This document shows, in pieces, positions 21,706 through 38,680 of a stretch of DNA of 46,813 nt (positions are counted from its first letter, which is position 1; each line of letters starts with the position of its first letter). This stretch comes from a virus. The stretch is from positions 1-46,813 of IMG/VR virus record IMGVR_UViG_3300050132_000140; one strand, written 5' to 3'. The notes beneath the pieces are model-generated. The model saw only the letters and a list, made by a program, of their open reading frames with translations, ran no database searches and was not told the origin of the DNA. Made by a program: the position numbers and the translations under genes.

Positions 21706-22440
21706 ATGACATCTCCACAGACTGATTATCGCACACTCCGCACCTCTAAATTCCAAACCTCTAATCCAGAAGTCATTTTACGATATCCCAATCGTTATGA
21801 TGTATGCCCTAATTGCGGCGGGCCAAAAGGAAAAAGGAATCGTACTTGCGCCGCGTGTTGGGAACCGCTACGGTTGAAAATCGAGCAACCATTGGACCCT
21901 GCTATAAAATATATCGCTCTAACTTGTGGGTACTTTGCTGTTATTGACGCCGAAGACTTCGCTGTTGTTAATCAGTATACTTGGTTCGCTCATATAGCAC
22001 GCCGAAAGGATGGAGAGATAATAGCAGTTTACGCGGCATGTGGAATCAAGTCAGAAGATGGCCGCTCGCACACCGTAAAACTTCATCGGTTTATTATGAA
22101 AGTGTCTGATCCTAAAATCGAAGTCGATCACTGGGACCATAATGGCCTAAATTGTCGGCGCTACAATCTTCGAGTTACAGATAGATCGGGGAATATTTTT
22201 AACCGAAGGATTAGGCGAGATAATTCGAGCGGGTTTAAGGGAGTCCGGCAACGTACAGGGTATCAACGATGGAAGGCAATGATAGGAGTCGAGAAAAGGC
22301 GTATATATCTTGGAGATTTTGCGTCAGCCATTGAAGCCGCCCGCGCTTACGATGTTGCCGCGCTACAATATCATAAGGAATTTGCTTTGACGAATGTGAT
22401 GCTGGGGCTGCTGCCCCCACTGGAGATAAATAATGGCTGA
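21706..22440 (+). CDS. HNH homing endonuclease with AP2 domain, copy 1
   Basis: 244 residues from ATG 21706, which has AGGAG 6 nt upstream; upstream in-frame codons lack a ribosome site. An N-terminal zinc ribbon (CPNCGG...TCAACW) is followed by the HNH core (KLHRFIMK, EVDHWDHNGLNCRRYNLR) and an AP2 DNA-binding domain (SGFKGVRQRTGYQRWKAMIG, YLGDFASAIEAARAYD). It is a free-standing mobile endonuclease between TerL and the next late gene. It is more AT-rich than its neighbours. Two related genes lie at 29322 and 36958. Its stop overlaps the next gene's start. Confidence 0.9.
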   Translation: MTSPQTDYRTLRTSKFQTSNPEVILRYPNRYDVCPNCGGPKGKRNRTCAACWEPLRLKIEQPLDPAIKYIALTCGYFAVIDAEDFAVVNQYTWFAHIARRKDGEIIAVYAACGIKSEDGRSHTVKLHRFIMKVSDPKIEVDHWDHNGLNCRRYNLRVTDRSGNIFNRRIRRDNSSGFKGVRQRTGYQRWKAMIGVEKRRIYLGDFASAIEAARAYDVAALQYHKEFALTNVMLGLLPPLEINNG

Positions 22441-22945: not shown

Positions 22946-24739
22946 GTGACTATACTTGGCGAGCGGCCCGAGCTTCAATTAGAGCAAGAGGTTATTGAGT
23001 GGACTGAAAGTGTCTATTCTGAAGCAGAACAAGAGTTGTTCGACTCGCCTGATACGAAACTTGTGACCAAGTTAATCGACTTTATTGAAGGTCGCCAGTG
23101 GTCAAACAAGGCTCGCTTCGGTCGCTCCCGCCCGGTTTCCAACAAACTCTTCAAGCAGTTCATCGAAACGGTAGGACTCCTCACCGACATCCAGCCGGAT
23201 TTCGCTGTCACGTTCAACGACAAACTGGGCGGGTACTCAGAACTCGAAAAACTCCTCAATCGCATGATTGGGGATTGGGCTCTCTCGTCTGAGTTCGAGA
23301 TGGAACTCACGCAGACTGTCATCTACGGTCTGATTCATACCGGGTTCGCGAAGGTGCAATGGAACGGCGCTCTCTGCAACGGGATCGGTGACAATGAGTA
23401 CGAAACGTACTCTCCTGTAAACTTGATGCAGATTGGCGCGGTTCGTCATCTCCAGGATGCCGAGTGCGTGATCGGTCGCAAAGCGGTAACACTTCCGTAT
23501 CTCGTTCGACGGTACGGCAAGGTAGCTGAGCAGGTGCGTCCAGACTTCCGTATGAATGATATTGGCGGGGAGATGCAGCGGCCCGGTCGCATTGGAAAAG
23601 GGCAATGGGCATCACTCTCTCCGGTACTGAAGAAGTTACTTGGCGAAGAGTCCGCTCCTGTGCGTTCGAAGTATCCGCGCACGATGCTCAAAGAATTCTG
23701 GATGAAGGATGACGCCGTTTGGAACGGGCGCGAGAGCATCATCGTTGGCGATGAACTCTGTAACTGGTCCTATCGCGTAGAGCCTGGAATGAAGCTATAT
23801 CCGCGTGGCCGGGTAGTCATCACCGCAGGCGGCAAGGTGCTGGAAGACAATCCAAATCCATACTGGCATGGAAAGTTCCCATTCGCGCAGTATCGCCCAT
23901 ATCGAGTGCCGTGGAAGTTCGCGGGACTTTCCATTTTGGAGCCCCAGGCCGCGATGCAGAACATCATCAACCGGATTTCTGGCGGGATCATGGACATGAT
24001 TAAGTCTGCCATTGATCCAACACTGGTAGCGCAGAAGGGTGCGCTCTCGCAGAGCGATTGGGACTCGATTGATCCGGGTGCCCCAGGCGGCAAGATCGGC
24101 CACAATAATAACTTCCAGCCTCCAAAGTTCCAGAATACGAAAGACCTCCCTGCTTACGTGATGCAGATGAAAAACGATATTGAGCGCGACATGAGCGAAA
24201 CCTCTGGCGCGGCGGCAATGTCGCAGTTGATGCAGAAGAAGCAGGTTCCGAGCGGTGACTCGCTGGACACGATTATGAACAGCCGGTCAACTCCGATTCG
24301 GCTCGCCGGTCGTTCGCTCGCGTCGTTTATGATCGAGGTAGGAAGTATGGTCACAGCAAACACGCTTCAGTTCTCCAACTCCGATCATCGCATTGCAAAA
24401 TACGGCGCAGAGGGAATCACCTCGCACGACTGCACTCCGATCTACGGAAACTTCATTCGTACAGGGATGGAGCCGGAAGAGTTCGTCAAACAAGCGAACT
24501 TTGGGATTAGCAAAGGAACCCTGCTTGCGCTGGATGGTCAAGAGGATATCCAAGTCGCATTCGCATTGCGAAAGGTTCACGATATCTCTCGTCGCGGCCT
24601 ATTCCGTATCATCGGTCGCCACAAGCATACCAACTTCGACATTGATCAGAATGACGCTGAGTTGCTTGAGGAAGCGTTGGTGCAGGCAAAGATTGGCGCG
24701 GCGGTTGGGGGCGGCGCAAAACCTCACGGGAAGAAATAA
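22946..24739 (+). CDS. portal protein
   Basis: 597 residues, GTG start. Features: acidic N-terminal helix, FIEGRQWSNKARFGRSRPVSNKLF-like entry, DIQPDFAVTF, conserved NLMQIGAVRHLQDAEC, wing-region PYRVPWKFAGLSILEPQAAM, and the stem/clip region QNIINRISGGIMDMIKSA. This composition and the position after TerL and before scaffold and capsid genes fit the portal of short-tailed phages. It forms the dodecameric ring through which DNA passes. Residues 384-395 (IGHNNNFQPPKF) recur exactly in the 58-residue protein at 36748. No strong ribosome site is seen before GTG. Confidence 0.85.
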   Translation: MTILGERPELQLEQEVIEWTESVYSEAEQELFDSPDTKLVTKLIDFIEGRQWSNKARFGRSRPVSNKLFKQFIETVGLLTDIQPDFAVTFNDKLGGYSELEKLLNRMIGDWALSSEFEMELTQTVIYGLIHTGFAKVQWNGALCNGIGDNEYETYSPVNLMQIGAVRHLQDAECVIGRKAVTLPYLVRRYGKVAEQVRPDFRMNDIGGEMQRPGRIGKGQWASLSPVLKKLLGEESAPVRSKYPRTMLKEFWMKDDAVWNGRESIIVGDELCNWSYRVEPGMKLYPRGRVVITAGGKVLEDNPNPYWHGKFPFAQYRPYRVPWKFAGLSILEPQAAMQNIINRISGGIMDMIKSAIDPTLVAQKGALSQSDWDSIDPGAPGGKIGHNNNFQPPKFQNTKDLPAYVMQMKNDIERDMSETSGAAAMSQLMQKKQVPSGDSLDTIMNSRSTPIRLAGRSLASFMIEVGSMVTANTLQFSNSDHRIAKYGAEGITSHDCTPIYGNFIRTGMEPEEFVKQANFGISKGTLLALDGQEDIQVAFALRKVHDISRRGLFRIIGRHKHTNFDIDQNDAELLEEALVQAKIGAAVGGGAKPHGKK

Positions 24740-29321: not shown

Positions 29322-29990
29322 ATGGCAACCCCTAAAAAAGTATACGATACGTATGCGTATTATCACAATGAATGTCCGCAGTGTGGAGGCAGTAAAAATA
29401 AGTATGCCAAAACGTGTAGAACGTGCAAAGAGGCTAGGCCGATCATTGTACAACCCGACGATCAAACTATCCGTTTCATCGCGCTAACACAAGGGCAGAA
29501 AACGGTCGTTTTGGTAGAACATTATAAATGGCTCGCGCAATGGAAATGGTCGGCATTGTGGAACCCAGATATCCAAGGATATTATGCGGTACGAAATCTA
29601 CCAAGAATTGACGGTAAGCGGAGTGGGTTTGCCTTGATGCATCGGGTAATACTTGGATTAGAATCTGGGGATGTGCGCCAAGGAGATCATATAAACCATG
29701 ATACCCTCGATAACCGACTGGGGTTTAATTTAAGAATTGCGACTCCTTCGCAAAATTCACAAAACCAGAGGCTTAGGAGTGACAATATCTCTGGGGTAGC
29801 TGGTGTTAGTTGGGATGCAAATAGAAGAAAATGGCACGTATCTATTACCGTAGATAAAAGAGTAATTCACTTGGGGCGGTTTGATTCTTTTGAACTAGCT
29901 GTGCAAGTAAGAAGGGAAGCCGTTATTCAGCATCATGGGAATTTTGCATGTGAGGGTAAACAGTGCCAATCATTCCAAATAGCGCAATAG
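29322..29990 (+). CDS. HNH homing endonuclease with AP2 domain, copy 2
   Basis: 222 residues, GAGAGA upstream of ATG. Zinc ribbon (CPQCGGSKNKYAKTCRTC), then HNH core (LMHRVILGLE, QGDHINHDTLDNRLGFNLR, NSQNQRLR) and an AP2 domain (ISGVAGVSWDANRRKWHVSI, HLGRFDSFELAVQVRREAV). Same domain order as copies 1 and 3. It has its own promoter candidate and terminator upstream. It overlaps the next gene by 28 bp, and the first ~20 codons of that gene are AT-rich like the HNH gene. The element may therefore have supplied the new 5' end. Confidence 0.9.
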   Translation: MATPKKVYDTYAYYHNECPQCGGSKNKYAKTCRTCKEARPIIVQPDDQTIRFIALTQGQKTVVLVEHYKWLAQWKWSALWNPDIQGYYAVRNLPRIDGKRSGFALMHRVILGLESGDVRQGDHINHDTLDNRLGFNLRIATPSQNSQNQRLRSDNISGVAGVSWDANRRKWHVSITVDKRVIHLGRFDSFELAVQVRREAVIQHHGNFACEGKQCQSFQIAQ

Positions 29991-35779: not shown

Positions 35780-36475
35780 ATGCCAGCAATTGCAAGTTTA
35801 ATCCCGACCGTCCTTGACCACGTTGAGGAAACTAATCCTCCCATCTGGGTCACAATGATGGAGGTCCAGGCGGCTATCGCAGAAGCAATCAACGATGCGA
35901 TGCTAATGGTGGGACGCCCTACGCAGATTGTCGATCAGCCGTACAAGATCACTCCAAATCTTACGTGGCAACCGATGCCTGCCGGGATGATCGCTATCAC
36001 AGACATTCAGGGACCGTCATCGAAGCTCTGGAAGTACACGCTGCGGGATATGGACTACACGCAAACCTATTGGGACTCAGCCTGGGAAAAAGATGTTGCC
36101 GATGTCAGCAAGGGGCAATTCCCTCGCGTATGGTTCCCGATAGGCTTTACCCTCTTCGGAATTTATCCACAAGCAAGTTTACCGATCACGGTGACTCTGA
36201 CTGGCATTGCAGTTCCCGTGAGCGGCGCGTGGCCTTATACTGGGAATGAACCAATTCCGTTTCACGATGAATTCTTTAATGCTATCGAAGAGTATGCCGC
36301 GCATTACTTGCGGTTCAAAGAAGGCGGGAACGAGTTCTCTGAAAGTTTCAAACTGCTGAAGTCCTACATCGCGTCGATGAAGAAGATGACAGAGATCGAA
36401 GATCGGCGCGATGGATACCTTTTTGGGACTGGCTTCGGAGTCAAAACCGGAGTCAATCCACCAACTTTCAGATAG
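35780..36475 (+). CDS. head-tail adaptor-like protein
   Basis: 231 residues (GGTGAG upstream). Helical N-terminus (PPIWVTMMEVQAAIAEAIND, MLMVGRPTQI). Mid-strands are followed by helices EFFNAIEEYAAHYLRFKEGG and KLLKSYIASMKKMTEIEDRR. The same helix-strand-helix plan is common in podovirus adaptor and gatekeeper proteins. Probably part of the tail-ring stack together with 29963 and 37805. Confidence 0.6.
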   Translation: MPAIASLIPTVLDHVEETNPPIWVTMMEVQAAIAEAINDAMLMVGRPTQIVDQPYKITPNLTWQPMPAGMIAITDIQGPSSKLWKYTLRDMDYTQTYWDSAWEKDVADVSKGQFPRVWFPIGFTLFGIYPQASLPITVTLTGIAVPVSGAWPYTGNEPIPFHDEFFNAIEEYAAHYLRFKEGGNEFSESFKLLKSYIASMKKMTEIEDRRDGYLFGTGFGVKTGVNPPTFR

Positions 36476-36484
36476 GAGCGAGTA

Positions 36485-36748
36485 ATGACACTTGACGAAT
36501 TACGTGGAGAAGTTCGACCGTGTACTTGTGACCCGCAAGGGGATTTGGCCTGTACGATGTGCCGTGGCAGGAACTTCGTAGCCCAGTGTCTTGGTTGTAA
36601 CGGCAAGGGGCAGACGGAAGAGAAGATGGCCGGGGGACCAGGGCAGATGCTTTCCACTTGCAACATCTGCGGCGGGACTGGCACGCTGCCCGCGACGAAG
36701 GCGCAGTACGAAGCTCAAGAAGCGAAGAAAGAAGAGGTGAAAGCGTAA
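36485..36748 (+). CDS. DnaJ-type zinc-finger-like protein
   Basis: 87 residues. Motifs CTMCRGRN, CLGCNGKGQ and CNICGGTGT follow the CxxCxGxG pattern of the DnaJ cysteine-rich domain, here without a J-domain. It could be a chaperone-like assembly factor or simply a zinc-binding connector. The stop overlaps the following ATG (TAATG). Confidence 0.7.
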   Translation: MTLDELRGEVRPCTCDPQGDLACTMCRGRNFVAQCLGCNGKGQTEEKMAGGPGQMLSTCNICGGTGTLPATKAQYEAQEAKKEEVKA

Positions 36749-36924
36749 TGAAAAGACCACTGATTGTGATGACTCACCAAAAAGGAACCTTATCTCTGAA
36801 TGAGGTTGAAGAGATCAAGAAAGAATTAAACAATTTCGGCATCGATTGCCTCGCTATCGGCCACAACAACAACTTCCAGCCGCCGAAGTTCAGTGAGTTC
36901 TATCAGCCCGATAACGAGTCGTAG
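36748..36924 (+). CDS. 58-residue protein containing a portal-identical peptide
   Basis: ATG 36748 (TAATG overlap). Strand RPLIVMTHQKG, helix SLNEVEEIKKELNNFGIDCL, then residues 37-48 IGHNNNFQPPKF and an acidic end. The 12-residue peptide is identical to portal residues 384-395, and the four nucleotide differences between the two copies are all synonymous. The first part is like short phage proteins with a beta-alpha-beta pattern. Possibly it competes with or mimics the portal segment. Confidence 0.65.
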   Translation: MKRPLIVMTHQKGTLSLNEVEEIKKELNNFGIDCLAIGHNNNFQPPKFSEFYQPDNES

Positions 36925-36969
36925 ATGGCAAACCCCGGTGTTGGACAGAGAGCCGATTCAGGGCCTTGA
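36925..36969 (+). pseudogene. remnant start of the adaptor gene split by HNH 3
   Basis: ATG 36925 follows the preceding TAG directly and encodes MANPGVGQRADSGP before a stop. The functional gene starts at 37805 with MANPGIGLRTALDV. The two 5' ends share MANPGxGxR, with different codons at most positions. I interpret this as the original 5' end, orphaned when the HNH element entered with a diverged copy of the gene's start. Confidence 0.6.
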
Positions 36970-37728
36970 GATCACACCAAAAACCTTCGTCAACTTATCT
37001 ATCAACATTGTCGGCAGTGAGTTTGGAGTTTCTAGCGGGAAGTTGAATGTTCCAAACTCACTACCCCACAACCACAGCACTGCGGAATCTCTTATCTTTG
37101 CTGCTTCAATTAGATCAGAGTATCGGCCCAAGGATGCGCGTTTGTGATTATCCCGAATGCTAGCTTCATATTTACCGCTTTTTACGCGATGAACTCCGAT
37201 GAATCCAGTTATTGAATCCTTCCTTAGTCGTTGATTATGTGCGTTCTGCTTAGGGGTACAGATACGAAGGTTGCTTTTTCGGTTATCGAGTCCGTTTTTA
37301 TTAATATGATCGACATCGAGCGATGGATCGGTAACATCGAGGATCATCCGTGCCATATGAATTGTCTGTCGGATGCCATTTATTTTTCCCTTAGTTTGTG
37401 CGTATTTTGTGCGAGTTAATGGGTCAAGCAAATTCCATGCCCATTGAGAGAGAAACTCATACTCTTCAGCATCAACTAAGGTATACTCCCAACCAGATAG
37501 AGGAATTCTTCTACAGCGCTCGCCTTGAACTATATAAAAACACTCGTCAATCGGGGGCCTACCGTTAGCTATCTGGCATCCACGACATTGATTGGCTTGT
37601 CTTCCCTTTAAGCCGCCACACTGCGGACAAGTATTTAAATTACATCTCTGTTTTGTTGTATATGATTCAGGTGTCGAAAATCTTAAGGGTGGGGTATACT
37701 GAGAATGGTGTAATTGGGTGCTGTTCAT
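36958..37728 (-). CDS. HNH homing endonuclease with AP2 domain, copy 3 (reverse)
   Basis: 256 residues on the minus strand from ATG 37728, with AGGAG and AGGG upstream. The domain order is a zinc ribbon (CPQCGGLKGRQANQCRGC), HNH core (HMARMILDVTDPSLDVDHIN, NGLDNRKSNLRICTPKQN) and AP2 (GFIGVHRVKSGKYEASIRDN, SLGRYSDLIEAAKIRDSAV). It is the only gene on this strand in the late region. AT-rich relative to neighbours. It lies across the start of the adaptor gene: an orphan start lies beyond its 3' end and a second start beyond its 5' end. Confidence 0.9.
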   Translation of the reverse strand: MNSTQLHHSQYTPPLRFSTPESYTTKQRCNLNTCPQCGGLKGRQANQCRGCQIANGRPPIDECFYIVQGERCRRIPLSGWEYTLVDAEEYEFLSQWAWNLLDPLTRTKYAQTKGKINGIRQTIHMARMILDVTDPSLDVDHINKNGLDNRKSNLRICTPKQNAHNQRLRKDSITGFIGVHRVKSGKYEASIRDNHKRASLGRYSDLIEAAKIRDSAVLWLWGSEFGTFNFPLETPNSLPTMLIDKLTKVFGVISRP

Positions 37729-37804
37729 GATTTCCCTACTCCTAATAGGGTATGTGCTGCCTGATTGCACCATATTATTATCTCATAAGGGTGCAGACGA
37801 AGCA

Positions 37805-38680
37805 ATGGCGAATCCAGGTATAGGTCTTAGGACTGCCCTAGACGTGTTATTGGAAGCCTCGCTTCAGATGGCACAGCCCGTGGTCTGGACCTCGATCACG
37901 GCTCCAGTTATTACGGGAACCAACTCTGTCACCGTTGGATCAATCTCAAACATGTATATAGGTGCTCAGGTTGTGGTCGGCTTCGGCACTGCAAACGTTG
38001 AAGCCGTCACTATCTCTGTAGTAGGAGCAGGAGCCTTTACCGCGACCTTTTCGAACTCCCATGCCAGCGGAGAAGCGGTCACTGGCTCGACGTTTGCCAG
38101 CCAAGCAGCGACCGATCCGATTTTTACGACGAACGAGTTGTTGAGGTACTTGAGTTGCGCTCAGAACGAGTTTCTGTCGAAAGTAGCGTGTGTCTTTGGA
38201 GTCTTCAACCAGACGATTGCAATCAATGAACTCTACCAGGCTACGCCGCCGACCGCTATCGAGATCAACCACATTTCCTGCCAAGGGATTCGCCTATACG
38301 AATTGACGCAAACGGAACTCACGATGCGGAATCGAAACTGGAAGGTGGAGACGCTTCTCACCCCGACCGCATTCTTTGAGGACCGGACAGGACTTTATAA
38401 GTGGGGAGTAAATGGAATTCCGCGTTCGAATTTCCCATGTGAGATTCTGGCAAGCATAAGGGACAGCGACTCGCTCACGCTTCTTGATGGGTTCGCTATC
38501 CCGGATATTCTCGTCCACTTTTTGAAGTACAAAATCATGCAGGATTGCTACAGCAAAGACGGCGTGATGACCGACCCACAGCGGGCTGCATACTGCGGCG
38601 AGAGGTTTGATCGTGGGATAGCAGCAACGCAGCGATGGCTTGATGCGACTGGAGCAACAAAAGGTATGAAGCGGCCTTAA
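37805..38680 (+). CDS. adaptor-like structural protein downstream of HNH 3
   Basis: 291 residues from ATG 37805 (MANPGIGLRTALDVLLEASL). The ribosome site is poor because the 5' region came with the HNH element. It contains a beta module (TSITAPVITGTNSVTVGSIS, GAQVVVGFGTANVEAVTISV) and helical parts (NELLRYLSCAQNEFLSKVAC). The C-terminal HFLKYKIMQDCYSKDGVMTD, YCGERFDRGIAATQRWLDAT resembles tail-adaptor helices. Probably a ring or knob component. The first ~20 codons are AT-rich. Confidence 0.65.
   Translation: MANPGIGLRTALDVLLEASLQMAQPVVWTSITAPVITGTNSVTVGSISNMYIGAQVVVGFGTANVEAVTISVVGAGAFTATFSNSHASGEAVTGSTFASQAATDPIFTTNELLRYLSCAQNEFLSKVACVFGVFNQTIAINELYQATPPTAIEINHISCQGIRLYELTQTELTMRNRNWKVETLLTPTAFFEDRTGLYKWGVNGIPRSNFPCEILASIRDSDSLTLLDGFAIPDILVHFLKYKIMQDCYSKDGVMTDPQRAAYCGERFDRGIAATQRWLDATGATKGMKRP

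Follow-up and report, generated by a model that had tools for sequence, protein, structure and literature searches.

Two starts of one structural gene on either side of an antisense HNH gene in a phage genome: a probable product of one-sided homing

A gene that appears to open in two places raises the question of how the second opening arose and which of the two the phage lineage originally possessed. In the stretch of DNA analysed here (the window), a 46.8-kb virus record, the intact structural gene opens at 37805 with the residues MANPGIGLRT, on the far side of an antisense HNH gene, and another start resembling that of the same gene (the orphan) is present on the near side. An initial annotation of this DNA had placed the intact gene, beginning MANPGIGLR, beyond the 5' end of the HNH gene, and this was found to be correct. 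The features of the region are as follows.

35780-36475, plus strand: SU10-adaptor-like protein, the upstream neighbour
36485-36748, plus strand: CxxC-rich protein of 87 aa; most relatives have a homologue upstream of their structural gene
36748-36924, plus strand: 58-codon gene, directly 5' of the orphan start, with a portal-like segment
36925-36951, plus strand: orphan start, nine codons reading MANPGVGQR, with the second highest profile score in the window
36952-36957, no strand: junction zone between codon 9 of the orphan and the HNH stop codon at 36958
36958-37728, minus strand: HNH gene of 256 aa, with an HNH_3 domain, a zinc-ribbon-like N-terminus (CPQCG..CRGC) and a weak AP2-like C-terminal part
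37729-37785, minus strand: HNH gene leader, containing a -10-like GATAAT at 37777-37782 and predicted hairpins
37787-37804, plus strand: short leader of the structural gene, aagggtgcagacgaagca
37805-37831, plus strand: putative replacement start, nine codons reading MANPGIGLR
37805-38680, plus strand: complete structural gene, head-tail connector-like, 291 aa, with the family-conserved residues present
38701-42066, plus strand: large downstream structural gene, its order kept in relatives

The two starts were compared with a profile constructed from residues 1-9 of the structural protein in 21 relatives, from which the window itself was excluded. When all 3602 possible starts in the window were ranked by this profile, the highest scores were those of the starts at 37805 (20.0) and 36925 (19.1), followed by a score of 7.4, and in 60 first-order Markov genomes that served as a control the maximum was 14.4 and the mean 8.1. 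The resemblance of both starts to the structural-gene family is far beyond chance, and the orphan is a genuine family start. Its ATG follows, with a gap of 0 nt, the TAG that ends the 58-codon gene (36748-36924), and both the coordinates and the reading reported for it earlier are accurate. The open frame runs on from the orphan to 36969 (36925-36969 reads MANPGVGQRADSGP*), and its likeness to the gene family stops after codon 9.

The product of the intact gene had earlier been called an adaptor. A weak match of this protein to phrog_399, annotated as 'structural protein' (7.6e-5), agrees with a structural role, whereas the SU10-adaptor match in this region belongs to the 35780-36475 gene, and the more specific name is a guess from position. 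An internal segment that is common to most of the aligned relatives after about residue 161 is absent from the structural protein of the window, and it is also lacking in one relative, L085.

Within codons 2-9, the orphan and the downstream copy share 15 of 24 bases and differ at the other nine, in agreement with the earlier statement that the two starts use different codons. Seven of these differences are at third positions, so that 7/8 third positions have changed versus 2/16 first and second positions (Fisher p=0.0007). In view of this bias, both copies have diverged as working, protein-coding gene starts, and divergence under such protein constraint fits an origin in two phage lineages, which is not the case for a duplicate made in place. 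Target duplications accompany many insertions, and an insertion that copied the local start, with the two copies drifting apart later, could on this ground be considered. However, a functionless stump would not hold its amino acids while seven of eight third positions change, and homing is not expected to produce target duplications; hence we regard this account as extremely improbable. In comparisons with the starts of other phages, which involve a short fragment and distant relatives, the orphan shares 9-18 bases and the downstream copy 9-19, and the two window starts differ from each other as much as they do from the starts of other phages. A start region derived from a diverged relative would fit the downstream copy best.

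If the two starts stem from different lineages, it is necessary to consider which of them was resident. The successive genes leading up to the orphan are separated by 9 nt, -1 nt, and 0 nt, and due to this tight packing the orphan is taken to be the lineage's own start. This points to the downstream copy as the newcomer and to the orphan as a remnant of the resident structural-gene start. In the reverse direction, the downstream start would be the resident one, and a block containing the orphan stump, and perhaps also the 58-codon gene, would have arrived together with the HNH gene. As no counterpart of the 58-codon gene was detected in the loci of any of the relatives, this small gene could indeed belong to a foreign block. 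The reverse direction nevertheless appears very unlikely, as the donor would have had to undergo a comparable insertion beforehand, the tight junctions (an overlap of 1 nt followed by 0 nt) have a native appearance, and the GC content at third codon positions (GC3) of the 58-codon gene (0.63) is also native-like. With the orphan taken as resident, the absence of the 58-codon gene from the relatives would explain why homology was lacking on the left side of the break.

Part of the portal protein encoded in the window itself (24023-24130) is similar to the 58-codon gene. A segment of 36 nt (IGHNNNFQPPKF) is shared by the two with 89% identity, all four differences being synonymous, and the portals of the relatives differ from that of the window in this stretch.

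The downstream copy had also been described as AT-rich like the HNH gene, and this part of the earlier argument is weak. The GC content is 47% over the first 30 nt of the downstream copy, compared with 60% in the orphan and 43% across the HNH gene, and in the structural gene GC or AT endings are distributed such that 4/12 of the first 12 codons end in G or C versus 0.59 of the remainder (p=0.06); other 16-codon stretches of this gene are equally low in GC3. Base composition was rejected as proof of foreign origin, the difference not being significant. The GC3 values are 0.59 for the body of the structural gene, 0.56-0.63 for its neighbours, 0.39 for the HNH gene and 0.63 for the 58-codon gene, and tetranucleotide use is similar to the left and right of the junction.

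These values bear on two further explanations. The first is that the HNH gene was imported in a single recombination that also covered the entire structural gene and possibly further sequence; the left joint would then have fallen by chance in codon 9-10 and the second start would be that of the imported gene and no repair patch. Such an exchange would give the same sequence, HNH-type nuclease genes have been reported at the boundaries of genetic exchange in phages (PMC10448857), and the relatives, with structural proteins less than 50% identical to that of the window, are too distant for the imported length to be read from them. On the other hand, the gene body is like its neighbours and unlike the HNH gene in GC3, and tetranucleotide use is alike on the two sides, each of these being a weak test; overall, import of the entire gene in this manner seems unlikely. 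The second is that an assembler joined two related phages of one sample at or near the end of the HNH gene, a concern that attaches to a virus record of the IMG/VR kind. A chimera of this sort is highly improbable, as the gene order of the family is kept across the joint, the composition of its two sides is indistinguishable, and the stretches that the two starts share are too short to have led an assembler astray.

With the structural protein by itself, the upstream protein or the large downstream protein as query, no close relative was retrieved from the searched records, which may omit ones very close to the window. The capsid protein gave 79 loci, to which more were added by aligning the structural protein across the family. 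The comparison of starts is based upon 26 related records, some of which are near-identical to each other. In all of them (26/26) the structural gene is uninterrupted and has one family-type start; up to 1500 nt upstream of it no second start scores above 11.7, and within 400 nt before it none (0/26) has an HNH match. Of the outcomes that, according to the initial annotation, would speak against its reading, neither uninterrupted genes lacking a start of this type at the orphan's position nor a downstream start ancestral in all was encountered, as far as such distant relatives tell. The earlier proposal of a start region from a diverged relative is partly sustained, by the third-position divergence and the single starts in relatives, whereas its argument from composition fails. 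A degenerate search for further family starts gave 10 stretches, all on contigs already in the relative set, and 396 sampled genomes from the phylum of one acidobacterial relative contained one true relative, which was already known. At the first codon of the structural gene, where one would look for a start codon, ATC, ATT, TGC or AAG is found in five records (L031 at 12029, L017 at 17416, L016 at 20226, L131 at 3992 and L122 at 3992).

The product of the HNH gene shows similarity to HNH_3 (PF13392; 26.7 bits, above the cut-off of 24.8) and to phrog_99 (E=3.6e-32). Its AP2 score of 14.7 bits is below the cut-off of 33.3, with weak matches to plant AP2/ERF chains, and its nearest relatives share about 40% identity with it, and this over only a part of their length. 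No searched record places the HNH gene upstream of the structural gene, and a donor of it was not found among them. A group I or group II intron in the insertion was rejected, as the Rfam search at a relaxed threshold detected none and gave a single weak match, to a miRNA. Within the HNH gene, in its 3' part, there is a 15-nt inverted repeat (37013-37065; 93% complementary, 23-nt loop).

HNH genes are present at other junctions of the same cassette in six of the 26 related records. Five of these, all on the minus strand (L008 12702-13187, L016 19111-19800, L087 1932-2528, L092 1929-2504 and L017 18521-18976), have their 3' end near the stop of the upstream gene and a leader before the next gene, and no stump was seen beside them by eye. 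The leaders of these five genes and that at 37729-37785 in the window contain a -10-like motif and, after it, a possible hairpin, a pattern recognized by eye and from single-sequence folds without controls. The window has two more HNH genes (21709-22440 and 29322-29990), and no flanking duplicate of a neighbouring gene's start was found at either. A flank-to-flank comparison at other HNH genes gave no convincing second stump: the best score was 37, versus 40 for the gene considered here, and the rest were at most 34; the match scoring 37 is a long, repetitive-looking alignment.

Taken together, a free-standing HNH gene of the homing type has probably entered a phage structural gene at its start by one-sided homing. 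In a donor phage, the HNH gene would have been located just upstream of the donor's own version of the structural gene, and its protein would have cut the recipient gene near codons 9-10, the site being deduced from where the stump ends. On the gene side, repair by copying of the donor would have brought in the HNH gene, the short leader and the start codons, and these start codons would have been joined in frame with the rest of the recipient gene. On the other side, the 58-codon gene of the recipient would have offered little homology, and the broken end would have been joined directly to the end of the HNH gene, such that the first nine codons of the recipient stay as a dead stump and the structural gene remains complete. 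The direction, the donor, the cut site, the one-sided repair and a working product of the mended gene are all things that we infer from the arrangement of the sequences, and the imported tract may extend into the structural gene, or even include the whole of it. In phage T4, homing with one-sided homology leads to illegitimate repair at microhomologies (PMC2988022), and the illegitimate joints formed in this way by T4 introns are of the kind proposed for the window (PMC2988022).

Comparable events have been described in other systems. In fungal mitochondria, mobile ORFs for endonucleases are known from atp6 of Allomyces and from atp6, atp9, cox2, and nad3 of Glomus (PMC3630166). As proposed for the window, the endonuclease gene brings with it a foreign gene piece, and the resident piece is displaced and left as a stump (PMC3630166). 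The two pieces of Glomus atp6 are 63.5% identical in DNA and 91% in protein (PMC3630166), compared with 15/24 shared bases for the starts in the window. The fungal ORFs, however, replace the 3' end of a gene and encode LAGLIDADG or GIY-YIG enzymes (PMC3630166), whereas the end affected in the window is the 5' one, with an HNH gene lying on the opposite strand, and the genome is that of a phage. Mitochondrial introns of Tremella are likewise mobile elements with a homologous piece of the host gene, which can replace the native one (PMC7315562), although these are predicted introns of fungal mitochondria (PMC7315562) and the region in the window is without an intron signature. Among phages, mobA and mobE of T4 are free-standing HNH genes located between conserved phage genes, as in the window (PMC2988022). 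The described insertions of mobE and mobA split genes into separate coding regions whose products assemble (PMC2988022); unlike these split targets, the window has one complete gene and a dead stump. In the literature searched, of which coverage was incomplete, no phage case of this kind turned up. Replacement of gene ends is thus known from fungal mitochondria, and its 5'-end version by a free-standing phage HNH gene looks like a new one.

A broader and more tentative suggestion, which we consider possible but rather doubtful, is that phage HNH genes of this type regularly carry with them the leader of the gene behind them together with its opening codons, so that insertion into a start repairs itself. 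If such regular co-travel is true, the joint is visible here only because one side lacked homology. The locus itself records in legible form how a selfish endonuclease gene could insert into a conserved phage gene and yet leave it intact, by bringing along its own version of the end that it breaks. The stump marks the probable cut region, which makes the cut site directly testable, and a search for similar stumps in other phages may show how often homing has swapped the ends of genes.
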